DNA of 64,000 nt from Deltaproteobacteria bacterium (GTDB lineage: Bacteria > Desulfobacterota > Desulfomonilia > UBA1062), in assembly GCA_018434685.1 (NCBI GenBank), contig JAHDOV010000010.1, positions 1 to 64,000 on the forward strand, in the 5' to 3' direction. A model generated the notes under the pieces. The model saw nothing but the letters and a program-made list of their open reading frames with translations, did no database searches and was not told where the DNA came from. Each line of letters begins with the position of its first letter. The first letter of the stretch is position 1. The position numbers and the translations under genes were made by a program. This document shows, piece after piece, positions 5,189-20,589 of this stretch.

Positions 5189-6189
5189 TACCCGTATTTG
5201 TGTCCAATATCGGGTGTCCTCACCGGTGCATCTTCTGCGATCAGCGGCAGTTCTCCGAGCCGGTCCCGCCTGAGGATGTGCCCGGCGTTGTCACTGACTT
5301 CATCGCCTCCTGCGACCGTGCCGACGAGCGCCACAGGCTGATTGCCTTTTATGGGGGCACCTTCACCGGTATAGCCGACGATCTCCTCGAGAGGTACCTG
5401 GACGCAGCATCCCTGCTCGTGAAACAGGGGATAGTGCATGGGATCAAGGCCTCCACGAGGCCCGACATGGTATCCTCCGAGATGCTCGCACGGCTCAAGC
5501 GCGCAGGCTTTGTCGAGCTGGAGCTCGGGGCCCAGTCAATGGACGACAGGGTCCTGGCGGCATCCATGAGGGGCCATTGTGCCGACGATACCGTGAAAGC
5601 TGCCCGCCTGGTCAGGGATGCGGGGCTGCAGCTCGTCATCCAGATCATGCCGGGGCTGCCGGGCGAGGACCGGCAGAGTTTCCGCAGGACCGTCGATGCG
5701 GTAGCGGCACTCGATCCTGACAGCGCCCGGATATACCCCACGGTGGTCATCTGCGGGACTGCGCTCGAGGAGCTTTATCGAACGGGTGAGTACATCCCGC
5801 TGGATCTCGATGAGGCAGTGAGTCGCAGCCTGTTTGCCTATATCAGGCTCACGAACAACGGGTGCCGGGTCCTCCGGATGGGGCTGCCCCCCTCCCGGGA
5901 CCTCAGGGTTGCGGCAGGGCCCTACCATGCCTCGTTCGGTTTTCTCGTCAAGGCCCGGGCTTACCGGATCATGGCACAGAGGCTCATGGACGAGGCGGGC
6001 AGGGATGTGCAGTTGCTCGTGCACTCCAGGGATGTCCCGGAACTTGTGGGGTACCACAGAGAGAATATTAATGATTTATGCTTTGCATACAGTTTTGACG
6101 ATAGGTTACCGAGGGGATATTTACGGGCGAAAGGTTTGACAGAAAGGGGTTGTGTACAACTTAAGGATATTATAGAGTATATTTTATGA
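5146..6189 (+). CDS. Radical SAM protein, Elp3-like family
   Basis: 347 residues with the [4Fe-4S]/SAM triad CPHRCIFC near residue 24 and GGTFTG near residue 70, as in the Elp3/YhcC-like branch of radical SAM enzymes. It lacks the C-terminal acetyltransferase domain of true Elp3. Genes of this family often sit beside rnc in other bacteria, which hints at an RNA-modification role, but the substrate is unknown. The ATG at 5146 lies inside rnc; an AAGGAGG 4 bases later leaves open a non-ATG start slightly downstream. It ends with an ATGA overlap with the HDOD kinase. Confidence 0.8.
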   Translation: MQGGIAIAGLSPVVVPVFVSNIGCPHRCIFCDQRQFSEPVPPEDVPGVVTDFIASCDRADERHRLIAFYGGTFTGIADDLLERYLDAASLLVKQGIVHGIKASTRPDMVSSEMLARLKRAGFVELELGAQSMDDRVLAASMRGHCADDTVKAARLVRDAGLQLVIQIMPGLPGEDRQSFRRTVDAVAALDPDSARIYPTVVICGTALEELYRTGEYIPLDLDEAVSRSLFAYIRLTNNGCRVLRMGLPPSRDLRVAAGPYHASFGFLVKARAYRIMAQRLMDEAGRDVQLLVHSRDVPELVGYHRENINDLCFAYSFDDRLPRGYLRAKGLTERGCVQLKDIIEYIL

Positions 6190-8621
6190 GATCAGATATC
6201 GTTGATGTAAGGTCTGTGCCTGTTCTTCCCGAACTCGCGGATCATGTGATCAGAATGGCCCTGGAGGAGGATGTCTCGGTAGCGAGGCTTGCCGGTCTTA
6301 TCGAGAAGGATCAGGCGCTTACCGCTCGGATACTTTCAGTAGCGAATTCAAGTTATTATAAACGATCACGGGATATCTGCACCGTCCGTGACGCCGTGGT
6401 CGTGATCGGGATCGACTCGGTACGTACGCTGGCGTTGGGCGTTTCCGTCCTCGATATATTCCCCACGGAAAAGGACACCGGCCTTGATTACAAGGATTTC
6501 TGGCGGCACTGCATGGCCTGCGGACTCTTTGCCGAGGCACTGATGGAATCCACATCAAGAGAGCTTTCAGCCAAGGCGTTCTGCGCGGGTCTGCTCCACG
6601 ATATCGGCAAGCTTGTGCTCGACCGGATGCACCCCCATGACTACGCCCGCGTGCTCCAGGAGGCCCGGGAGGGGATCAGGCCGCTCATGGAGATCGAGGA
6701 GGAGCACCTCGGAACCAACCACGCCGAGATCGGCCGCGATGTGCTGGCATACTGGAAACTGCCGCAGGTGTACCAGGAGGGTATCTGGTGCCACCACGGC
6801 CCGGTGAAGGTGACCGGGGATGAACAGTACCGGATATCGGGGATCGTTCACATTGCAAACATCCTTGCCCACATGACCTGTGAGGGCGCATCCGGGAACA
6901 ACTACCCGCAGGAGGTCTCGAGTCCTCTTCTCAAACAGTTCGGCATCCAGGCGGAGCTCCTCGACAGGCTCATAGAGAAGGTGCCCAGGCAGGTCGACAG
7001 CATATGCGAAGAGATCGGGATCGGAAAGCCCTCCGAGGGCCTGTTCGGCATCGTGAACATGGCAAACGCGAGGCTGGCGGATATCTCGCTGAGACTCCAG
7101 CAGAATATTGTCGAGGTGAGCCTTGCCAGGAGACGTACCGAGATACTGATACAGCTGCTCACTACTCTCAACGATGCATCGAAGATCCCGGAAGTGCTCG
7201 AGAAAGCCGCGCAGAATCTTTTTGAAGCTCAGCTCATCAGCCGGTTTCTCGGCGGACTGAAGCTGGGGAAGCTCAACCTCGTGTATGAGATCGTCAAAGG
7301 CGCTGCACCGAAGGTTGCCAGGGTCGGGGGCGAAGACCTCAAGTCCATGATCCTTTCCCACAATTACACGGTGGGCATGATGCTGCCCTCTGGTGTGTTC
7401 GTGTATCTGGAGATCGAGGACCATGACCTCGGGGATGACCAGGAGTTCATCTCGTCCGTGATCGGCGCCGTCTCTTCCTCACTGAGACGGGCCCATGCCG
7501 AGAATGCGGTCCTCGAGGAGAAGGCCGTGCTGAGGAATGCCCTCAAGAGTGCATCACAGGAAAAGCACAACGCCGAGGAGATGCTGCGGCTCAACCAGGA
7601 GCTCATGGATGCATCGACGTTCGGGCTGTGTCTTGTCGACGAGGCGAACCGCGTGCGGCTGGAGAATGAAATGTCGTGTCAGATACGCACTGTCCTGGAT
7701 ATTGCCGGGGATGATATTCTCCAGGCACTGGAGAATGAACCCTCTGCGTCTCGCCAGGAACTGAAATCATTGATTGCATCGCGGTCTGCCGGGAGCATCG
7801 AGCTGCACGGCAAAGCCCGCACCTTCCGTGTGGAGACGCGGCCGATACAGGTGAACAACTGGATGCTGGTCATGGTCCGGGACATCACCGACGAGCTCGA
7901 GCAGCAGAAAAGGAGACTCGCGTATGCAAAGATGTCCGTGGTGGGAAGCCTGGCTGCATCCATGGCCCACAACATGAAGAGTCCCCTGGGCGCCATCCAG
8001 GGGTTTGGGAGCATCATCAGGGACGACTTGAACCAGAACGCCATCCAGGTCATGCGCGGTGACCATCCCGACCAGGATTTTCGCGACATGATAGACAACA
8101 TCATTACCGCATCCGAGAATGTGCTGAAGATTGTCAATCAGCTCCTCAACTTTACGAGAAAGTGGGAGAGCCCCGAGGGCGAGATCGATCTCGAGGGATT
8201 CATCGGGGGGATCACCCAGATCGTTTCTTCGCAGGCCGCCTCGGCAGGGGTCGTGCTGATGAATGCGATAGAAGCAGGCAGTGTGCGGATCAAGGCCGAG
8301 GCCATGGAACAGGTGCTCATCAATCTGCTGATCAATGCCATCAAGGCCTCTTCCCGGGGTGCGGAGGTGGAAATACGGGCCTCTCGAAGTGAGGAGGGCA
8401 TCACGTTCAGGGTCGTGGACCACGGCATCGGGATGAGAGAGGAACAGATCGAGAAGATATTCGATCCGCTGTACACTGCCTGGCCGTTAAAGACAGGCAT
8501 GGGTCTCGGGCTTTCCCTGGCAAAGGATATCATAGATTCAATGGGCGGCAGGATAGACGTAACATCGAAGCCGGGAGAAGGTTCCATATTTACAGTTTGG
8601 ATACCAGAAGGTAAGGGATAG
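6186..8621 (+). CDS. HDOD-domain sensor histidine kinase
   Basis: 811 residues in three parts. An HDOD domain (about 8-210) contains LLHDIGKL but is of the output class usually without phosphodiesterase activity. The middle (about 310-560) looks like a GAF-type region followed by a PAS-type sensor. A C-terminal kinase has phospho-acceptor His595 in MAHNMKSPLG, an N box LLINAIKAS, and glycine boxes MGLGLSLAKD. It is probably cytoplasmic, with no membrane segment seen. It starts by ATGA overlap with the radical SAM gene and is followed 2 bases later by a REC-PAS kinase, so the two likely form one phosphorelay. The signal is unknown. Confidence 0.88.
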   Translation: MRSDIVDVRSVPVLPELADHVIRMALEEDVSVARLAGLIEKDQALTARILSVANSSYYKRSRDICTVRDAVVVIGIDSVRTLALGVSVLDIFPTEKDTGLDYKDFWRHCMACGLFAEALMESTSRELSAKAFCAGLLHDIGKLVLDRMHPHDYARVLQEAREGIRPLMEIEEEHLGTNHAEIGRDVLAYWKLPQVYQEGIWCHHGPVKVTGDEQYRISGIVHIANILAHMTCEGASGNNYPQEVSSPLLKQFGIQAELLDRLIEKVPRQVDSICEEIGIGKPSEGLFGIVNMANARLADISLRLQQNIVEVSLARRRTEILIQLLTTLNDASKIPEVLEKAAQNLFEAQLISRFLGGLKLGKLNLVYEIVKGAAPKVARVGGEDLKSMILSHNYTVGMMLPSGVFVYLEIEDHDLGDDQEFISSVIGAVSSSLRRAHAENAVLEEKAVLRNALKSASQEKHNAEEMLRLNQELMDASTFGLCLVDEANRVRLENEMSCQIRTVLDIAGDDILQALENEPSASRQELKSLIASRSAGSIELHGKARTFRVETRPIQVNNWMLVMVRDITDELEQQKRRLAYAKMSVVGSLAASMAHNMKSPLGAIQGFGSIIRDDLNQNAIQVMRGDHPDQDFRDMIDNIITASENVLKIVNQLLNFTRKWESPEGEIDLEGFIGGITQIVSSQAASAGVVLMNAIEAGSVRIKAEAMEQVLINLLINAIKASSRGAEVEIRASRSEEGITFRVVDHGIGMREEQIEKIFDPLYTAWPLKTGMGLGLSLAKDIIDSMGGRIDVTSKPGEGSIFTVWIPEGKG

Positions 8622-8623
8622 TC

Positions 8624-11365
8624 ATGACTCAGAAGATTTTGATTGTCGAAGATGATCCTGTTTTCAGAAACTATCTGTTCCAGGTCCTCAAGTATGATTT
8701 TGATGTCGTAACCGCTCCCGGTCCACTCGAGGCCCTGGATGCATTCAAAGAGGATACCTTCGGGTTGATGATCACCGATCTGCGGATGCCCGACATGGAC
8801 GGGAGGGCGCTTGTCGAGAAGGTTCACGCAGAGATCGATCCCAACCTCATGGTGATCGTCATCACAGCCTTTGAAGATGACTGGCCCATGGATATCGCCA
8901 TGACCTCGAATGTCTTCCGCTACCTGCGCAAGGGTGGCTTCCTTCCCAGCGAACTGAAGCAGAATGTCTCAAAGGCATTCGAGATGCGCGGGTCCATCGT
9001 CTCGCTGGAAGAGTACAAAAGGCGGGTGGACATTACCGAGGCGCTCTATAAAGATGTCTTCGACAAGTACACGGATGCGCTCTTCATCACGGACGTGAAG
9101 CTGAGGCCCGTTGCCATAAACAGGCGTTTCGAGGAACTGACCGGCTACACCCTGGACGACTTCAGGGACAGGACCCTGCCCGATATTATCGATGCGGCAC
9201 AGAGGCAGCAGGCGATTCAGTCCTTTCATGACCTGATCGCCGGCATGCCGCCCAGGCCGGTGGATGTGCAGTTCCTCAGCAGTGACAAAACGAAAAGGCC
9301 TGTCACGGTATTTGCGCGATTGTTCACCGATATTCAGGGAATGTCCAATGCGATCTTCTGTACGGTCACCGAGGTCAAGGCCCTCGATGAGGAGTCCTCA
9401 AGGCCGGGATTGCCCGACAAGGATCTCAGGGAGGAGCTGGAGGCCAGGACCAGAGAGCTCCATGACCTCAGGAGAGGGTTCCAGAGGCTTACCGATCACG
9501 CAAAGGATATCATTATTTGGCTTGATAAAGATTTCAGGTGCGAGTATGTCAATGCCGAGGTGCAGAGGACCCTGGGGTATTCACCCGATGATTTCCTCGG
9601 CAAAGAGGTGCCCTGGAAGGATATCGTCCATCTCGATGATTACCACTTTATAGAGAAATGGCAGAAGGCAGCCCTCAACAAGGTGCCGGAGATGGAAGGG
9701 GAGCTGCGGGCCTATACGAAGTCGCGCTATATGCTCTACCTGTCCTACCGGTTATCCCTGCAGTATGACCAGAGCGGAACGTTCTCGTCTCTGGACATCG
9801 TCGCCGAGGATATAACCCAGCAGAAGATCGCAGAGCAGGAAGTGAAGAGAGCAAACAGGAAAATCCAGGAATTCAGCGACCGGCTCGCCAACGGTGTCGG
9901 CAAGAAGATCCGCGAATTGAGAGAATCGGAAGAGCGGTGCAAACAGATCGTGGAAGAGTCTCAGGATATCATATTCTCGATCGATGCCGATGCCCGTATC
10001 GTCTACATGAACAGGAGAGGCCTCCAGACGTTGAGGGTCTCCTTCGACGACATCTCGTTGCGGCCATGCCGGGAGTTCGTCTCCGATGAGGCATCCGTGA
10101 ACAAGCTCACGGAGATGATCGAGCTGGTAGCCAGGGGGGTGAATCCCGAGCCCTTCGATCTCTCTATCGAAACGCTTAAGGGGAGGAAGATCTTCAGGAC
10201 CACGATCTCTCAGACCGGCGACGATTCCCGGCCGGAGTTCGTCTGTACGGCCAGGGATATCAGTGAGGAGATTGCAAAGAACAATCAGTTGCAGCTGCTT
10301 GCCAATATTGAATACTACAGTGCCGATGCCATTATCGGATTCGACAACGCACGCAACATCATCTCCTGGAATCAGGGCGCATACACGATGTTTGGATGGT
10401 CCGAAGACGAGGCCATGGGTAAACCGATCTCTATCATCGTTCCTGAGGCGGGAATAAAAGAGGCTGAGGATATCCTCCGGAAGGTCAATGACCGGGGGGT
10501 TGTCAAAGACCTCGAGACGCAGAGAAAGACCAAGGAAGGACAGGTCATCGATGTTTCCCTGACCATAACGGCGCTGAAAGATTCCTCGGGAGAGATCTTC
10601 GGCTTTTCCTCCATCATCAAGGATCTCACGGAAAAGAAGAAGATGGAGGCAGCCCTGATTCAGTCGGAGCGCCTGGCTGCAACGGGAAAACTCTCGGCCA
10701 GTATCGCTCATGAGATCAATAATCCCCTCTACGGGATCCGGAGCTGTCTGAACCATGTGCTCGGCACCAAAAGCGACGGGGTGGATCATCAGTTCGTACG
10801 TCTTGCCATCAAGGAGACCGATCGGATCGCAGACCTCATCCGGAACATGAAGACCTTCTACATGCCCAATGAGGGCGGCGTGCAGAAGGTAGACATCAAC
10901 GAGACCTTGCGGGATGTGTTCATCCTCAACCGGAAATACCTTGAAGAACAACTGGTGAAGCTGAGGTTCAGCCCGGAGGATTCCTGCCGGGTCGAATGCG
11001 TACCCGACCAGATAAAGCAGGTGTTCATAAATATCATCACCAATGCCGCAGAGGCCATGCCCAATGGCGGGGAACTCCTGGTGAGTACGCACCAGTCAGC
11101 GGAGGAGGGAACCGTCAGTATCGTCTTCGAGGATACCGGGGTAGGTATTTCCCGGGACGATCTTCCCCATATCTTCGATATGTTCTATTCGAAGAAACCC
11201 ATGGTAAAAGGTGTCGGACTCGGCCTGTCGGTGAGCTATGGGATAATCAGACGTCATGGGGGGACCATGACCGTCCGGAGTGAAGAGGGCAAAGGTTCCA
11301 CGTTTACCGTGACACTGCCCATCAAGACTCTCTGGGCAAGGCAGATGCAGCTTGACCTCAAATAA
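8624..11365 (+). CDS. Response-regulator/multi-PAS hybrid histidine kinase
   Basis: 913 residues. An N-terminal receiver domain has phospho-acceptor Asp52 (ITDLRMPDMDG). Four PAS-like segments follow (roughly 140-260, 285-410, 430-550 and 555-670), with coiled-coil linkers at about 265-285 and 410-430. The C-terminal kinase carries His696 in SIAHEINNPL and glycine boxes GVGISRDD and GVGLGLSVSYG. Receiver-first architecture suggests that it accepts phosphate from the upstream HDOD kinase and controls its own kinase module. No transmembrane helix is visible. Its 3' end overlaps era by 14 bases. Confidence 0.9.
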   Translation: MTQKILIVEDDPVFRNYLFQVLKYDFDVVTAPGPLEALDAFKEDTFGLMITDLRMPDMDGRALVEKVHAEIDPNLMVIVITAFEDDWPMDIAMTSNVFRYLRKGGFLPSELKQNVSKAFEMRGSIVSLEEYKRRVDITEALYKDVFDKYTDALFITDVKLRPVAINRRFEELTGYTLDDFRDRTLPDIIDAAQRQQAIQSFHDLIAGMPPRPVDVQFLSSDKTKRPVTVFARLFTDIQGMSNAIFCTVTEVKALDEESSRPGLPDKDLREELEARTRELHDLRRGFQRLTDHAKDIIIWLDKDFRCEYVNAEVQRTLGYSPDDFLGKEVPWKDIVHLDDYHFIEKWQKAALNKVPEMEGELRAYTKSRYMLYLSYRLSLQYDQSGTFSSLDIVAEDITQQKIAEQEVKRANRKIQEFSDRLANGVGKKIRELRESEERCKQIVEESQDIIFSIDADARIVYMNRRGLQTLRVSFDDISLRPCREFVSDEASVNKLTEMIELVARGVNPEPFDLSIETLKGRKIFRTTISQTGDDSRPEFVCTARDISEEIAKNNQLQLLANIEYYSADAIIGFDNARNIISWNQGAYTMFGWSEDEAMGKPISIIVPEAGIKEAEDILRKVNDRGVVKDLETQRKTKEGQVIDVSLTITALKDSSGEIFGFSSIIKDLTEKKKMEAALIQSERLAATGKLSASIAHEINNPLYGIRSCLNHVLGTKSDGVDHQFVRLAIKETDRIADLIRNMKTFYMPNEGGVQKVDINETLRDVFILNRKYLEEQLVKLRFSPEDSCRVECVPDQIKQVFINIITNAAEAMPNGGELLVSTHQSAEEGTVSIVFEDTGVGISRDDLPHIFDMFYSKKPMVKGVGLGLSVSYGIIRRHGGTMTVRSEEGKGSTFTVTLPIKTLWARQMQLDLK

Positions 11366-13725: not shown

Positions 13726-15114
13726 ATGGCAGTAAAGGTGTTGTTGAACGAGGATGAGATCCCGCGGCAGTGGTACAATCTGGCAGCCGATCTTCCCTCA
13801 CCGCTGCAGCCGCCGCTCGGGCCCGACGGCAAGCCTATCGGTCCCGAAGACCTGGCCCCGGTATTTCCCATGAATCTCATCGAGCAGGAGGTTTCGAGGG
13901 AGCGATGGATCGATATACCCGAGGAGATCCTGGAGATCCTCTATCGCTGGAGGCCTTCTCCCTTGCGAAGGGCCGTGTATCTCGAGAAGGCGCTCAACAC
14001 CCCTGCCAGGATCTACTACAAGGACGAGGGGGTTTCCCCTCCCGGCAGTCACAAGCCCAACACCGCCGTTGCCCAGGCCTGGTACAACAAGCAGTTCGGT
14101 ATCGAACGGATCACCACGGAGACCGGGGCCGGCCAGTGGGGCAGCGCCCTGGCATTTGCCTGTGCGATCCTGGGCCTTAAGTGCAAGGTCTACATGGTGC
14201 GGATCAGCTTCGATCAGAAGCCGTTCAGGAAGCTCATGATGAATGTGTGGGGCGCCGAGTGCGTGGCGAGCCCGAGCATGAACACGCAGGCAGGTCGCGA
14301 TGTTCTGGCCAAACACCCGGATACGCCGGGCAGCCTCGGAATTGCCATCAGTGAGGCCATCGAGGATGCAGTAAGCGACAGGAGCGGCAAGACGAGGTAC
14401 TCACTGGGCAGCGTACTCAACCACGTGATGCTTCACCAGACCATCATCGGCCTGGAGGCGAAAAAGCAGCTCGCCAAGATCGGCGAGAAGAAGGTGGATG
14501 TCGTCATCGGCTGCGCCGGAGGCGGCAGTAATTTCGCGGGGCTGGCATTCCCCTTTGTGGCCGACAAGATCAATGGCGCCCGGATCGAGATTATCCCGGT
14601 GGAGCCCTCATCCTGTCCCACCCTGACCCGGGCCCCGTTCACCTACGACCACGGCGATGTGGCAAAGATGACGCCGCTGCTGGCCATGCACACCCTCGGG
14701 CATGAATTCGTTTCACCCCCCATACATGCGGGTGGGCTGCGCTATCACGGCATGTCGCCGCTGGTGAGCCAGGCCGTGGTGGAGGGACTGCTCACTCCGC
14801 GGTCAATGGATCAGCTCCACTGCTACGAGAGCGCCCTGTTCTGGGCCAGGACCGAGGGATACATCCCGGCGCCGGAGACCTCACATGCCATAGCCGCGGT
14901 GATCGAAGAGGCGAAAAAGGCCCGGGAGGAGGGGAAGGAGAAGGTGATCCTCTTCAACTGGAGCGGACACGGACTCATGGATCTCTCGGGGTATGCGAAC
15001 TACATGGAGGGGAAACTGGTGGACTATCCGCTGCCCGAGGAAGAACTGCAGGAATCGCTCAGATCCCTCGAAGGCCTCCCCAAGGCGCCGATCGTGAAGA
15101 CCGGCAGATGGTGA
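13726..15114 (+). CDS. trpB: Tryptophan synthase beta chain, TrpB2 type
   Basis: 462 residues from the ATG at 13726, chosen because AAGGAGG lies 7 bases upstream; a TTG 21 bases earlier is in frame but poorly placed. It is a PLP enzyme of the TrpB2 branch: the Lys of SHKPNTA binds [12 protein letters not shown] is the substrate loop, and [10 protein letters not shown] binds the phosphate. The long N-terminal extension ([21 protein letters not shown]) is typical of TrpB2. These enzymes join indole and serine, often without a TrpA partner, and salvage of free indole is a proposed role. No other trp gene is near. Confidence 0.93.
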
Positions 15115-15115
15115 T

Positions 15116-15376
15116 ATGAACTCGTGCGATTATGACGAGTGCACCACGAGGTGTCCCATGCTCGGGCACCTCGTGCCGTTTCACTACTGCAGGGACCACA
15201 CCGGGGAGCTGCCATGCAGGAAGATCCTCGACTGCTGGCACGAGCGGTTTGCTGTCCATGAGTACCTGCGGGGCATCTATTCCGAGGAGGAGATCGCCCG
15301 GATCGTCTCACCCCCCAGGCCGAAGCTGCTGCAGATCATCGAGATCGCCCGGAAGGCCCGCGGTCACGAGGGCTAG
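15116..15376 (+). CDS. Small Cys-rich protein, unknown
   Basis: 86 residues, starting directly after the trpB2 stop codon, so it is translationally coupled. The N-terminal half has six Cys (C4, C9, C13, C25, C34, C40) and nearby His residues (H17, H23, H28), the pattern of a metal-binding fold; the C-terminal half is helical and charged. No signal peptide. I do not recognise the family. The context suggests a partner of the TrpB2 enzyme, which is inference only. Its 3' end overlaps by 4 bases with the convergent CheD-HDOD gene. Confidence 0.65.
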   Translation: MNSCDYDECTTRCPMLGHLVPFHYCRDHTGELPCRKILDCWHERFAVHEYLRGIYSEEEIARIVSPPRPKLLQIIEIARKARGHEG

Positions 15377-16683
15377 AAGGACTCGGCGATCACCGTGAGG
15401 TGCTCATAGACCTGCTGCGGCTGCAGGCCGAGCATTCCCATGCTCTCTTCCATGCTGGCGCTGCTGGTCTTCTCGATCTCGAGGCCGGTGAGAAACCTGT
15501 CGACGAAGACATCGGCAAGGTAGACCAGGTTGACCATTTCCTGGTTGTCCCGGGCACTGCCGGGACTGTGGTGGAAGAGGATGGCATCCCTGATGACGTC
15601 GGGGAGCTCCCATCTCTCGGTCAGGACCAGTCCGGTCTGGCAGTGATCTATGCCGAACATCTCTCTCTCGAGCTCGCTGGAGTCCTTGTTCCGGTCGTAG
15701 ATGGTGCGGTAGAACAGGGGCTGGACAGCGGCAATGTGCTGGTCGAGCACCACCTTGCCGATATCATGGAGAAGGCCTGCCGTGTAGGCGACGTCCGGCG
15801 CGATTCCTCCCCTTGCCCGTGCAAGCCTCTCGCTCAGACGCGCGGTGGCCAGGGCATGATGGTACATCCCACCCCTGCTGAGCGAATAGCCCTGTTCGCA
15901 GCCCAGATAGATCTTCTCCGTCTGAGCAGTGATGACCATCTGGATCAGGATCTTGCTCCCGAGGAACACGACTGCCTGGTCGATCGAGGCGATCTTCCGT
16001 GGTATTCCCAGGTACGATGAGTTGCACAGCCTGAGCACATTGGCGCTGAGCACCTGATCCCGCTTGATCTCATCGGCGATGGACGAGATGTTCGTGTCTT
16101 CATCCGAGAGCATGTGGGCGATACTCAGGGCGATCTGCGGTACCGGGAGCAGCCGGTCGATGGCTGCCGATATCTGGTCAAGGGAGATGTGCGTCTTAGG
16201 CAGTTCTCCCGAGCCGTTCCTGTCCAGGACCGGTTCGATCGTGCAGGTGCCGGTATCTATCTGCAGGCTCATGCAGAACGGGTTGACCCCGCTCGCCTCG
16301 AACATCTTTATGGGGATGCCGCGAGATCGCATGCATGCCAGGGTAATCTCGAGCGTCCTGTGGCCGATGTTGAGGTTCATCTCCTGGGGAGACAGCGGGT
16401 TCACCAGGGCACCGCCTGCGATGAAGGCAATCAGGTCTTCTTCGCGGCAACCCTGGGATTTCATGGATTCTATGAACAGGGGGATGCCGGTTCGTGCGTA
16501 ATAGGTGGTGTGGGACTCAGGGATAGCACTCACCGGTTCGGGCAGGAGGATATGGAGCAGGCCGCCGGAACCGGTGTGCGGATCAAAGAGACCAAGGCCG
16601 ACGCACGATCCCAGGAAGGCCTTGAGCTGGCCGCTGCTGTTGATCACCATTCCACCGGTTGGGACGATTGTCGTCATGGTCAT
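15373..16683 (-). CDS. CheD-HDOD fusion protein
   Basis: 436 residues. Residues 1-160 resemble CheD, the chemoreceptor glutamine deamidase: AFLGSCVGLGLFDP with Cys27, LLHILLP with His44, and later GGALVNP and NIGHRTLEIT. Cys27 and His44 match the catalytic pair of CheD, but the third conserved residue (Thr, six before the Cys) is Lys here. Residues about 175-380 are an HDOD domain (LPVPQIALSIAHML, LLHDIGKVVLD). HDOD proteins act as signalling outputs. No che gene is in the window. It follows the Gx-transporter gene by 55 bases on the same strand. Confidence 0.85.
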   Translation of the reverse strand: MTMTTIVPTGGMVINSSGQLKAFLGSCVGLGLFDPHTGSGGLLHILLPEPVSAIPESHTTYYARTGIPLFIESMKSQGCREEDLIAFIAGGALVNPLSPQEMNLNIGHRTLEITLACMRSRGIPIKMFEASGVNPFCMSLQIDTGTCTIEPVLDRNGSGELPKTHISLDQISAAIDRLLPVPQIALSIAHMLSDEDTNISSIADEIKRDQVLSANVLRLCNSSYLGIPRKIASIDQAVVFLGSKILIQMVITAQTEKIYLGCEQGYSLSRGGMYHHALATARLSERLARARGGIAPDVAYTAGLLHDIGKVVLDQHIAAVQPLFYRTIYDRNKDSSELEREMFGIDHCQTGLVLTERWELPDVIRDAILFHHSPGSARDNQEMVNLVYLADVFVDRFLTGLEIEKTSSASMEESMGMLGLQPQQVYEHLTVIAESF

Positions 16684-16738
16684 GCCCTTTCACCCTGCCT
16701 GTCGTGCAGGGCAATGTACGGTTCGATCCCGATGCCCT

Positions 16739-17245
16739 TCACCGCGGTGAACGTCTCTGCTGCAGTTGCATCACATTCAATATCAATTGTGCACAATATC
16801 CATTTATCATGCCGGTGACGAGAGATACAAGGAGAAAGAGGGGAAGGATATGGATGAGGGAGAGGTGTTTGATGATGAGGCTCGCGAGTACTATCTGGGC
16901 GGTCATATGGCCGATGGCGCCCCCGACGCTCACCCCCAGGATGGAGAACATACCTTTGGGCATCCACCACATGATGAGGCCGGCCGTGATTCCCCCGCCC
17001 AGTGAGAAGAAAAAGGTCGGTGTGAAGATGCTTCCGGTCAGCGCCGAGGCGATAACGACCCTGGAGATCACCACGAAGAGTGCCCAGGGGCCGCCAAAGG
17101 TGTACAGCGTGCAGATCGTTATGATGTTCGCCAGGCCAAACCTCAGAAACGGGGCCGGCCTGGGGATAAACGACTCGGTCCAGTGCAGGGCTACGGCCAT
17201 GGCGATAAACAGGGCAATCTTGGTGATCCGAAGGTTCTTCTCCAT
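16739..17245 (-). CDS. Gx transporter family membrane protein
   Basis: 168 residues with about five hydrophobic segments; motifs FLRFGLANIITI and SLGGGITAGLIMW match the family also called heptaprenyl diphosphate synthase component I. Despite that old name, the fold is that of ECF-type substrate-binding membrane proteins. The substrate is unknown. Homologues often pair with FMN-binding or NusG-domain proteins, which are not seen here. It sits between sppA and the CheD-HDOD gene, all on minus. Confidence 0.8.
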   Translation of the reverse strand: MEKNLRITKIALFIAMAVALHWTESFIPRPAPFLRFGLANIITICTLYTFGGPWALFVVISRVVIASALTGSIFTPTFFFSLGGGITAGLIMWWMPKGMFSILGVSVGGAIGHMTAQIVLASLIIKHLSLIHILPLFLLVSLVTGMINGYCAQLILNVMQLQQRRSPR

Positions 17246-17302
17246 GCTATATCCCGAGTTGGGGAATCTTTGAGGCCATCGGCCCGGGCAGAGGATCTCT
17301 CC

Positions 17303-18181
17303 TCAGGGCCATGAATAGAACCCGCCGATGTTCTCCCCTTTCCTGCGGTACAGGACCACGGTGGGGTCGTCCACGCCGGTGAGCGATTGTATCTTGGCAA
17401 GGGCATCCTCATAGTACCCCACCTCGTCGATGAGATGATAGCCCTGGCCGGCAGTCGCGGTCATGACCCGTCCATCGGTGATGATTGCAAGATCCTCCTC
17501 GGTCACCGGTCTCAGCTCGGTTACCCGTTTGATGAAGTTGCGGTGGAATTCCAGGACAATATCCGTAAGGATCGCCTTGTCCTCTTCGGTCATGTCCCGC
17601 AGGGGATTGCCCGTGTCCTTGAATTTCCCCGATGTGATGGTCTGGTTGTCGATGCCCAGTTTATCCATGAGGCCCTCGAGGCTTACCGAGGGGAGGATCA
17701 CCCCGACATTGCCCACCACTGCCGAGGGCAGCGCGATGATGTGGTCCGCGCAGAGAGCAACCATGTATGCGCCCGAGGTGCCGGACTCGGTAATACAGGC
17801 AACCACGGGTATGTCCTTGGCCTGTCTGTACGCCCTGATCCTGTTGAACACGAGATCGGATGCGGTATAGCCGCCTCCGGGCGAGTCGATCCTCAGGATG
17901 ACCCCCTTGATGTTCTTGTCCTTCTCCGCCATTTCCAGGACCGCCTCGAGCCGCTCGAAGGTGCCCTGTTTCGGCAGGAGTGCATCCCTGCTCTGGGTGG
18001 TGCTGATGAAGCCGAGGACCTCCACGACGAGCACCTTTTCCGCTGTGCCCGGTTTGATAACCCGTTCTTCCAGCGGCTGAATCTGCATGATGCCCGCCAG
18101 GTCGACAGAGATGAATGCACATCCCTGGCACAGGAATAGAGTCCCAAGCAGAATCAGCCACGATCTGACGCGAGTGTTCAT
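17303..18181 (-). CDS. sppA: Signal peptide peptidase SppA (short form)
   Basis: 292 residues, the single-domain form as in Bacillus. The N-terminus is a hydrophobic signal or anchor ending LFLCQGC, possibly a lipobox. The catalytic Ser136 lies in SGTSGAY and the general-base Lys188 in SGKFKDTG; the 52-residue spacing equals that of B. subtilis SppA. RIDSPGGGY forms the oxyanion region. It degrades leftover signal peptides in the membrane. It is the first of three co-directional minus genes (with the Gx transporter and CheD-HDOD). Confidence 0.92.
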   Translation of the reverse strand: MNTRVRSWLILLGTLFLCQGCAFISVDLAGIMQIQPLEERVIKPGTAEKVLVVEVLGFISTTQSRDALLPKQGTFERLEAVLEMAEKDKNIKGVILRIDSPGGGYTASDLVFNRIRAYRQAKDIPVVACITESGTSGAYMVALCADHIIALPSAVVGNVGVILPSVSLEGLMDKLGIDNQTITSGKFKDTGNPLRDMTEEDKAILTDIVLEFHRNFIKRVTELRPVTEEDLAIITDGRVMTATAGQGYHLIDEVGYYEDALAKIQSLTGVDDPTVVLYRRKGENIGGFYSWP

Positions 18182-18360
18182 GGTTTGTCATCCCCCTCTC
18201 TCATTGTCTGTAACCAGCCGGACAGGATTTCCCCGGTTCATATGACGCCGCCGCTTGTGACGATCCGGTATCCTCCCATCGAACTATCTAAAGAGTAAGC
18301 AGTTCGGTGTGTTCAGGCAAGTCGTCACATGAAGGCCCTGGCACGGTGCTACCCGATTTC

Positions 18361-19737
18361 TCAGCCGATGGTGATTTCCGGGATGAGCAGGGTGGGTTGG
18401 GCATCGGCCACAGGGGCCCCTTGACCGTCCTTTCCGCATGTGCCGATTCCGTATCCGAGGTCGCTGCCGACACACTCGATGGAGCTGAGGATCTTCGGAC
18501 CGTTGCCGATGAGCGTCGCGCCCCTGATGGGCTCCCCCACCGCGCCGTGCTCGATGAGGTATCCCTCGGCCACATTGAAGACGAAATCTCCGTTGACCGT
18601 GTTTACCTGGCCGCCCCCCATCTTCTTCACGAAGATGCCTCTGTCCACCTTTGCCAGGATCTCGGCAGGGTCCATGGTGCCCGGCAGGATCAGGGTGTTC
18701 GTCATGCGCGGTATGGGCCTGTGCCGGTACGATTCTCTCCTCCCGTTTCCGGACAGGGGCAGGTCGAACTTCGCCGAGGTGATCAGGTCGGTCATGTATG
18801 CCTTGAGGATACCCTTATCCACGAGGAGGGTTCTGGCGGTGGGGTTGCCTTCGTCGTCATACCCCATGCTCCCCCGCAGTCCGGCAATGGTGCCGTCGTC
18901 GACGACCGTGATGGCAGGGGATGCAACCTGTTTGCCGATCTGTCCGGAGTATACCGAGAGGCCTTCTCCTGCCAGGTCCGCTTCCAGCCCGTGGCCGATC
19001 GCCTCGTGCACCATGGTGCCGCCGGCCTCGCTGGAGAGGACCACGGGCATGGTCCCGCCCGGTGCCCGCCGGGCATGGAGCGTTCTCAATGCCCGGGAAA
19101 GGGCCCGTAGAGCGATCTGCTCCGGGGGATCCTTTTCGAGGAGCTCGAAGCCCCGTGCACCGCCGACGGGTTCATAGCCGGTTTCCATGAGCGAATCTTT
19201 CGCCACGACCCCCTGCACCACAAAGATGATGGAATCGCGGTTATCCTCGGCGATAAATCCGTTCGAGTTTGCAATCACGACCTGCCGCGATCCGTCCCCG
19301 TACATCACCTTGACCTGGACGACCGAGGCATCCTGTGCCCAGGCGGTCTTCTCGGCCCTGGTTATCATCTCGATCTTCTTTTCGGAGTCAACGAGACGGG
19401 GGTCTGTCCCGGCGCATACCATTGAGCGCCGAGGCCTCGTTTCCAGGGAGATGTCCGCGGTGAACCGGCCTGATCTGATGGCCGATGCAACCGTTGCGGC
19501 GAGGTCGTCCAGGGTTGAGAGGTCATTGGTGTAGGCATAGGCGGACCTCTCGCCGATCACCACGCGCAGCCCCACGCCGAATTCCTCTGTCGCGATGAAC
19601 TTTTCGATCTTGTGTGCCTCCGAGACGATCGAGGTGCCCTTCTTGTGCTCGATATAGAGCTCGGAGAAATCACCCCCATGGACGAGGGCCTTCTTGAGGA
19701 GCCGCTCGAGGTTGATGCCCCTTATCCCTGCTTCCAT
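18361..19737 (-). CDS. tldD: Metalloprotease TldD
   Basis: 458 residues, the normal TldD length. The metal site is MVHEAIGHGLEADL (HExxxH type, near residue 240) and the C-terminal part has the expected GxGPK and GTCGKDGQ phrases. TldD with TldE/PmbA removes leader peptides and degrades unfolded peptides; no tldE is visible. Its start overlaps the 3' end of smpB by 16 bases, which ties it to the smpB/RseC-like unit. Confidence 0.94.
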   Translation of the reverse strand: MEAGIRGINLERLLKKALVHGGDFSELYIEHKKGTSIVSEAHKIEKFIATEEFGVGLRVVIGERSAYAYTNDLSTLDDLAATVASAIRSGRFTADISLETRPRRSMVCAGTDPRLVDSEKKIEMITRAEKTAWAQDASVVQVKVMYGDGSRQVVIANSNGFIAEDNRDSIIFVVQGVVAKDSLMETGYEPVGGARGFELLEKDPPEQIALRALSRALRTLHARRAPGGTMPVVLSSEAGGTMVHEAIGHGLEADLAGEGLSVYSGQIGKQVASPAITVVDDGTIAGLRGSMGYDDEGNPTARTLLVDKGILKAYMTDLITSAKFDLPLSGNGRRESYRHRPIPRMTNTLILPGTMDPAEILAKVDRGIFVKKMGGGQVNTVNGDFVFNVAEGYLIEHGAVGEPIRGATLIGNGPKILSSIECVGSDLGYGIGTCGKDGQGAPVADAQPTLLIPEITIG

Positions 19738-20189
19738 GTTTTCACCTCTCGCGCAACGTCCCTCTTCACATCGCGATCCTTGATGACGTCTTTCTTGCTG
19801 TAGGTGCGTCTGCCCTTGGCAAGTCCGATCTCCACCTTGATGAGATTGCCCTTGAGATAGATGCTCAGCGGAACCAGGGTCAGGCCCTTTTCCTTTACCT
19901 TTGACGAGAGCCTGACGATTTCCCGGCGGTGAAGCAGGAGCTTTCTCTGCCGGGTCGGTTCGTAGTTGAAGATGTTGGCCTGTACATACGGACTGATATG
20001 GAGGTTGTTGATGTAGGCCTCTGAATTTCTTATCTGGGCAAAGCTGTCCTTGATATTACCGCCCCCGTTCCTGAGGGACTTCACTTCCGGGCCGCCCAGT
20101 ACGATGCCGGCCTCGATGGTCTCCAGGATCTCGTAGGAATGCCTGGCCTTCTTGTTGAGGCAGAGCACCTTTTTCGTCTCATCCTTCAT
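19722..20189 (-). CDS. smpB: SsrA-binding protein SmpB
   Basis: 155 residues from the ATG at 20189 (MKDETKKVLCLNKKARH). The longer open frame beginning at 20258 lies inside the upstream gene and reads unlike SmpB, so it was not used. Signatures are GIVLGGPEVKSLRNG, the tmRNA-binding surface, and the basic tail GRRTYSKKDVIKDRDVKRD. SmpB carries tmRNA to stalled ribosomes. No ssrA gene is seen in the window. It overlaps the RseC-like gene by 11 bases. Confidence 0.96.
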   Translation of the reverse strand: MKDETKKVLCLNKKARHSYEILETIEAGIVLGGPEVKSLRNGGGNIKDSFAQIRNSEAYINNLHISPYVQANIFNYEPTRQRKLLLHRREIVRLSSKVKEKGLTLVPLSIYLKGNLIKVEIGLAKGRRTYSKKDVIKDRDVKRDVAREVKTWKQG

Positions 20190-20589
20190 GAATGACCTCG
20201 ATGATCCTGGGATTATCGATCCGCTTGCCCAGTTTCCGCACGATGACGAGGCTTGCAAGAAAGCCGATTACGGCCGCAGTGGCCTGGACAGGGGTGCTCA
20301 TGTCGAGGAAACTCATCAGGAACAGGGCCAGGATAATGGCACACAGGGGGACAAAAAAGGCATAGGTGCATGCCTTGATGAGGGACACTCCCTCCAGGGC
20401 AATGATCACCCGGTCGCCCGGCGCCACCGCCATGGGGGGTCTGGGCAGCCGGAAATCCATGTCGGGCGTCGAGAGGCTGTGGCAGATACCCTGTGCCTCA
20501 CAGCCCTGGCAGGCAGCCTTCCTGCTTACGGATACCTGTACCTGGTTTTCATATACATCGATGATGGTGCCGCAGACTGTATTTATCAT
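20179..20589 (-). CDS. RseC/SoxR-reducing-system family protein
   Basis: 136 residues. A cytoplasmic N-terminal part has the redox-type Cys cluster C27xxC30, C36 (RKAACQGCEAQGICH), then two transmembrane helices (about 72-90 and 98-117). RseC proteins help reduce the SoxR iron-sulfur centre or act in envelope stress and thiamine or electron-transfer contexts. No rnf or rse operon is near, so the role is open. It is followed by smpB with an 11-base overlap and preceded by ptsI, 7 bases away. Confidence 0.8.
   Translation of the reverse strand: MINTVCGTIIDVYENQVQVSVSRKAACQGCEAQGICHSLSTPDMDFRLPRPPMAVAPGDRVIIALEGVSLIKACTYAFFVPLCAIILALFLMSFLDMSTPVQATAAVIGFLASLVIVRKLGKRIDNPRIIEVIHEG

Follow-up and report, generated by a model that had tools for sequence, protein, structure and literature searches.

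A CheD-HDOD fusion protein with a conserved Cys-His pair appears to be a CheD-HDOD gene module in fused form

Results

One gene encodes a CheD and an HDOD domain

The window analysed here is a stretch of 64,000 nucleotides from a Deltaproteobacteria bacterium (contig JAHDOV010000010.1), and the features relevant to this study are listed in Table 1. The open frame of the fusion gene starts two codons upstream of its ATG. Pfam assigned residues 46-149 of the product to CheD (PF03975; E 4.3e-15, 56.2 bits against a cut-off of 25) and residues 179-374 to HDOD (PF08668; E 1.6e-48, 165.3 bits against a cut-off of 22.9). We then modelled the protein with AlphaFold2, using an alignment of 52 fusions as input, and obtained a mean pLDDT of 88.0 and a pTM of 0.89, residues 155-158 being the sole stretch of three or more residues with a pLDDT below 50. 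By VIA-align, model residues 1-154 matched Thermotoga maritima CheD (2f9z_C) with a Z of 23.8 and an rmsd of 1.9 over 148 residues, corresponding to a TM of 0.86 by target length, and residues ~165-436 matched the HDOD structures 3p3q_B (Z 24.0, 246 residues), 3hc1 (Z 18.7) and SadB 9qzk (Z 16.6). Foldseek, also run on the model, matched both the CheD and the HDOD fold.

Table 1 Features of the fusion gene and its gene cluster in the window
Feature	Positions	Strand	Basis
CheD-HDOD fusion gene, 436 aa	15373..16683 (incl. stop)	minus	ATG at 16683; ORF and Pfam
CheD domain, residues 1-154	16222..16683	minus	Pfam 46-149; VIA-align to 2f9z_C
Linker, residues 155-164	16192..16221	minus	predicted structure, pLDDT
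HDOD domain and C-terminal helices, residues 165-436	15376..16191	minus	Pfam 179-374; 3p3q_B match
Cys27 codon (putative nucleophile)	16603..16605	minus	invariant, 52/52 fusions
His44 codon	16552..16554	minus	invariant, 52/52 fusions
Lys21 codon, place of the third triad residue (Thr21 in T. maritima CheD)	16621..16623	minus	triad numbering as in PMC7022378
His306-Asp307 codons, HD doublet	15763..15768	minus	alignment
Heptaprenyl diphosphate synthase component I-like gene (PF07456), upstream neighbour, 55 bases before the fusion	16739..17245	minus	Pfam; order kept in most own-family loci
S49 peptidase gene, fusion's gene cluster	17303..18181	minus	Pfam and locus comparison
TldD/PmbA-like gene, fusion's gene cluster	18361..19737	minus	Pfam and locus comparison
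SmpB gene, fusion's gene cluster	19722..20258	minus	Pfam, NCBIfam and locus comparison

The original prediction had read a CheD-type N-terminus, with LGSC bearing Cys27 and HILLP bearing His44, and a C-terminal HDOD domain, and both are borne out by Pfam and by the predicted fold; the structure prediction that it had proposed for the N-terminal half returned CheD. Sequence and model together confirm that the window protein is a CheD plus an HDOD in one chain. The fusion is not a chance product, since the window protein could be aligned with 51 further fusions that share its layout at 26-73% identity, and since the predicted fold matches both CheD and solved HDODs.

We counted as a fusion every listed match that spans the query from residue 25 or earlier to residue 390 or later without a stop. 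Among the best four candidates per genome, at least 51 full-length fusion genes were found in at least 49 of the 395 genomes of the phylum sample, with two copies in two genomes. They occur in at least 20 family-level groups, and in at least nine of the 12 sampled genomes of the window's own family. One further fusion (L035, 73% identical) comes from a 'Deltaproteobacteria bacterium' MAG in another collection, the scan of which yielded two loci and one true fusion, so that the spread outside the phylum is poorly sampled. Phage records gave no match with 80% coverage. Separately, a stretch of the unannotated phage record MT835847.1 (13051-13437) is CheD-like over query residues 24-152, with 34.6% identity.

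Fusions lie before cheR or outside chemotaxis loci

In the window's family the gene order is ptsI, smpB, tldD, S49 peptidase, PF07456 and fusion, facing a TrpB-like gene, and this order is kept wholly or partly at L035, L107-L111, L113 and L114. The window fusion looks like the orphaned last gene of a housekeeping cluster. A scan of 15050-20400 for promoter-like sites (4 against 2.0 expected) and terminator-like sites (3 against 3.6) was uninformative. When the whole genome was searched for MCP, CheW-domain, CheR and CheD, the 188.8 kb contig carrying the window yielded no match other than the fusion's own CheD. Elsewhere in the window, an HDOD-histidine kinase hybrid of 811 aa (6186-8621, plus strand) is followed by a REC-PAS-histidine kinase (8624-11365, plus strand); a homologous HDOD gene and kinase lie near the fusion at six own-family loci (L107, L108, L109, L111, L113, L114).

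Fifteen fusions (L041-L055) directly precede cheR, including L044, L050, L051 and L053, which were counted as cheR-adjacent because CheR is the next gene. At L054 an HTH-receiver protein is encoded before the fusion and a PAS/GAF histidine kinase after cheR, as judged by Pfam. The L122 fusion lies ~3 kb from a che cluster that has its own CheD-HDOD gene pair. For 36 fusions, the window one included, no che gene was seen in the flanks examined, which measured ~1.5 kb or less on both sides for 12 of them and 230 bases on one side for L119. We refer to the branch with the window fusion, which is not linked to cheR, as the orphan branch.

The Cys-His pair is invariant and the third triad residue is replaced

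The original prediction had also named conservation of the cysteine and the histidine among homologues as a test, and the alignment gave a clear answer: none of the 52 fusions lacks Cys27 or His44, even at 26% identity to the window protein. As a control we assembled 84 standalone CheDs of the same phylum, a non-random set of 48 paired with an HDOD gene and 36 unpaired. It contains a systematic sample of 40 loci, namely every third of 118 non-fused rows lacking a locus among the better-scoring matches listed, and for the rest the best-scoring rows and CheDs encountered beside HDOD genes. One or both of the two residues are missing from seven of the 84 standalone CheDs versus none of the 52 fusions (Fisher p 0.044, with rows that are not independent); in the systematic sample both are present in 40 of 41 CheD rows. 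Five second CheD paralogues near a canonical CheD (L086, L097, L100, L101, L150) carry Gly or Ser at the place of Cys27. At L117 (7362-10109) a fusion is directly followed by a degenerate CheD gene lacking Cys27 and His44, and then by a degenerate HDOD gene.

The third residue behaves quite differently. In T. maritima CheD it is Thr21 (PMC7022378), and the window protein was predicted to carry Lys instead, six residues before the Cys. This holds, yet the substitution is no peculiarity of the window protein: position 21 is Glu in 30 fusions, Lys in nine, Gln in three, Asp, Asn, Val and Arg in two each, and Tyr and Gly in one each, so that Thr or Ser is absent in 52 of 52. In the own-family rows (the window protein, L035 and L006-L013) it is basic, Lys or Arg, in 10 of 10, which is unusual for a catalytic triad and counts against the reading we favour below. 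Position 22 separates the fusions further, being Thr in 15 of 15 cheR-linked ones; among the other 37 a single one has Ser there, and 36 lack Thr/Ser at both places, including the window protein with Lys21 and Ala22. Standalone CheDs beside an HDOD gene have Thr/Ser at 21 in 46 of 48 cases, and unpaired ones have it at 21 in 26 of 36 and at 22 in nine more (35 of 36 together), as does the systematic sample at one place or the other in 40 of 41 CheD rows; the residue groups at 21 and 22 are largely clades, and these counts represent few events.

Loss of the third residue alone does not imply a dead enzyme, because, according to PMC7022378, Cys and His mutants of NTAN1 are dead while mutation of the third residue slows the enzyme ~5-fold, and a backbone oxygen fills this place in CNF1. 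We nevertheless considered that the CheD half might only bind, docking on chemoreceptors or other coiled coils with Cys and His as a relic or as structural residues and leaving the work to the HDOD half. The missing third residue of the orphan branch speaks for this, as do the CheD paralogues of the phylum without Cys27 (five of 36 unpaired, two of 48 paired). Moreover, Cys and His may have been kept for another reason, since PMC3513319 describes the binding role of CheD as outweighing deamidation in Bacillus subtilis. However, the pair is invariant in the fusions while some non-fused paralogues lose it, and the cost of the third residue in NTAN1 is merely ~5-fold, and we therefore regard a binding-only CheD half as doubtful.

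CheD and HDOD genes are neighbours in che operons

We examined whether standalone CheDs also keep company with HDOD. A same-strand HDOD gene lies within 300 bases of the CheD gene at 22 of the 40 sampled loci, an adjacency whose chance expectation we estimated at <1% from the 13 HDOD matches in the 4.29 Mb of the window's own genome. The remaining 18 sampled CheDs have no adjacent HDOD gene, which counts against our main reading. MCP, CheA, CheW, CheR or CheB is encoded nearby at 33 of the 40 loci (16 of 22 paired and 17 of 18 unpaired), and a recurrent order is cheA, cheW, cheR, cheD, HDOD, receiver, cheB (e.g. L134, L130). The original prediction had placed the fusion outside any chemotaxis operon; this is correct for the window gene, but it missed the wider CheD-HDOD pairing, found mostly inside che operons, of which the fusion is one variant.

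Trees of both domains were then built. In a short search over 121 HDOD rows (52 fused, 46 paired, 23 other), the 52 fused HDODs together with L066, a fragment whose frame runs into the contig end, and the 46 paired HDODs together with two unpaired ones came out as sister branches (SH-aLRT 87 and 94; 84 for the two together), with the remaining 20 HDODs outside. In the CheD tree of 136 rows, a single branch separates all fusions from the rest (73/84; 76% of bootstrap trees), which gives moderate support to a common origin of their CheD halves; the two trees were rooted at the midpoint, and both contain long branches that meet. The simple reading of these sequence data is one old CheD-HDOD association that takes two forms, neighbouring genes that mostly sit in che operons and a fused gene, and the window protein looks like the fused form of this existing module.

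Two further gene pairs were observed. In the spirochaete Leptospira interrogans (NZ_CP020413.2, L182, 6929-8292) cheD and HDOD genes, so annotated, adjoin, with no other che gene listed within 7 kb in a gene table that is incomplete. In the window's own genome (contig C46, L104, 9642-11153) a CheD-like gene without Cys27 directly precedes a zinc-ribbon-HDOD gene, with no che gene within the 20 kb examined. The latter is possibly a binding-only CheD-HDOD pair, and its missing Cys27 indicates, against our main reading, that the partnership can exist without the nucleophile.

The own genome has chemoreceptors and other CheDs

CheD normally tunes chemotaxis receptors. The window's own genome encodes seven MCPs over the cut-off (nine matches), six CheW domains, five CheRs and two flagellin matches, together with two cheR-cheD-cheB clusters whose CheDs have Cys and His; one CheX was found, and no match to PF04509 (CheC). 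The fusion could then be a true chemoreceptor deamidase that acts in trans on these MCPs and is merely encoded elsewhere. The seven MCPs are potential substrates, and the pattern [AS]xx[QE][QE]xx[AS], which we take to be that of MCP substrate sites, occurs as a Gln-bearing stretch in six of eight scanned MCP frames, a count made without a chance control and not used as proof.

Two observations seemed at first to speak against such a role. The Met-Phe pair that PMC3513319 describes as conserved in the CheDs of CheC-bearing species is absent from 52 of 52 fusions. Most standalone CheDs here lack it as well (45 of 48 paired, 27 of 36 unpaired), and we therefore stopped reading its absence as evidence that CheC or receptor binding had been lost. 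Likewise, the best NCBIfam CheD score of the window fusion is 65.6 bits against a cut-off of 251. Four other CheDs also fall short of their cut-offs, namely the two operon-encoded ones of the window's genome (191.5 of 223 and 112.2 of 236) and two that are paired with HDOD (131.7 of 251 and 131.6 of 240), and the miss was therefore discarded as a sign of a non-orthologue. The absent Met-Phe pair and the NCBIfam miss do not DISCRIMINATE, so neither speaks against CheD function, and to that extent deamidation in trans is spared two apparent objections. The lower score of the window protein shows divergence only. Still, the two paired CheDs and a cheR-linked fusion (126.4) score roughly twice as high, the window protein has no Thr/Ser at 21 or 22 and no che gene nearby, and the two other Cys-His CheDs in the cheR-cheD-cheB clusters would already serve the MCPs of this genome. 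Taken together, we judge a receptor deamidase acting in trans to be unlikely.

The HD residues of the HDOD half are complete

The window HDOD carries H276, H306-D307, H347, H371-H372 and D391, a complete H-HD-H-HH-D set of HD metal-ligand residues. All 52 fusions share H276, H306, D307, H347 and H371; 41 of them, and 17 of 26 paired HDODs, carry the whole set. These residues could make the HDOD half a metal-dependent phosphohydrolase of a nucleotide or cyclic dinucleotide, with the CheD half as its regulator, and PgpH (4s1b) and HD-GYP (4mcw) are indeed among the structural matches of the HDOD model, at Z 10.6-10.8. Glycyl-tRNA synthetase chains, however, outrank both at Z 11-13, and the GYP motif, a feature of HD-GYP c-di-GMP phosphodiesterases, is absent from the fusion translation. 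In addition, eight of the 13 HDOD matches in the window's genome have the full set (the fusion and seven of 12 others; two of the 13 align only in part). Intact HD residues thus do not set the fusion apart, and we abandoned them as its hallmark. HDODs have been described as lacking key HD active-site residues (PMC4114195) and as lacking phosphodiesterase or catalytic activity (PMC6543031, PMC4114195). The former trait is found neither here nor generally in the own genome; the latter speaks against an HDOD enzyme. Enzyme activity of the HDOD half is therefore possible from its residues, though no feature of the fusion as such, and a regulated phosphohydrolase strikes us as quite improbable.

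Discussion

We propose, at about even confidence, that the fusion is a signalling protein whose CheD domain, with its Cys-His pair, binds a partner, probably deamidating it, and links it to HDOD. This proposal builds on the conservation, the predicted fold, the pairing and the HDOD kinship, from which we infer the activity, the partner and the output. The CheD half would dock on a helical partner that bears a glutamine, and most likely it would still hydrolyse the side-chain amide through the Cys27-His44 pair, although the loss of the hydroxyl residue would lower its rate or alter its specificity. In cis, within the same chain, this binding or turnover would be signalled to the HDOD domain, which would relay the signal to a protein or nucleotide partner, as in HDOD motility control. 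HDOD proteins change motility in Pseudomonas, Xanthomonas and Campylobacter (PMC11004494, PMC11813219), by a mechanism that the accounts in PMC6543031 and PMC11004494 give as not established.

The two branches may differ in what they act on. The cheR-linked fusions probably act on a receptor-like protein methylated by CheR; for the orphan branch, with the window fusion, both target and chemistry have probably shifted, so that the target need not be a chemoreceptor. We tentatively suggest, as a rather doubtful extension, that the orphan branch is a Cys-His amidohydrolase repurposed out of chemotaxis, which would modify a non-receptor glutamine and switch its own HDOD. If so, it would represent a one-protein route of post-translational signalling derived from the CheD-HDOD module of che operons.

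In the full-text, open-licence literature we found no paper that joins CheD with HDOD or with 'HD-related output domain'; the architecture itself is presumably listed in domain databases. The recurrence of the fusion in dozens of related genomes, and the altered active site and non-che setting of the orphan branch, point to a little-explored link between the two domains. The conserved pairing and the fusion would name CheD as a concrete biochemical partner for HDOD and would put both domains in receptor adaptation, and the orphan branch offers a natural experiment in CheD chemistry without the third triad residue and without a che context.

The window protein has in common with T. maritima CheD (2f9z_C) the fold, the LGSC Cys27, His44 and a core of GG and IGxR. 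It differs in having Lys for Thr21, no Thr/Ser at 22 and no Met-Phe pair, and in being fused to HDOD outside a che operon. Human NTAN1 (6a0e; Z 13.2) and the CNF1/YfiH-like cysteine hydrolases share the fold and the Cys-His pair (PMC7022378); NTAN1, in contrast, is specific for N-terminal Asn and has Ser as its third residue, according to the same source. On the HDOD side, the fold is shared with MmoQ (3p3q), Geobacter 3hc1, Cj0248 (1vqr) and SadB (9qzk) at Z 16.6-24.0. The N-terminal domain sets the window protein apart, being a CheD where SadB has a YbaK-like domain (PMC6543031), and its HD residues are complete, unlike those in the description of HDODs in PMC4114195 but like those of other HDODs in its own genome.

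Geobacter group alpha che clusters likewise contain an HD-type protein in a chemotaxis-like setting, as HD-domain genes described as standalone, and the available excerpt of PMC2577667 draws no link to CheD. The adjacent cheD and HDOD genes of Leptospira interrogans and of che operons within the phylum encode the same two domains, with CheD first in the pairs examined. Here CheD and HDOD remain separate genes, and the paired CheDs of the phylum, unlike the fusions, nearly always retain Thr/Ser at position 21 (46 of 48); the paired HDODs of the phylum form the sister branch of the fused ones, in a tree that did not include the Leptospira gene.
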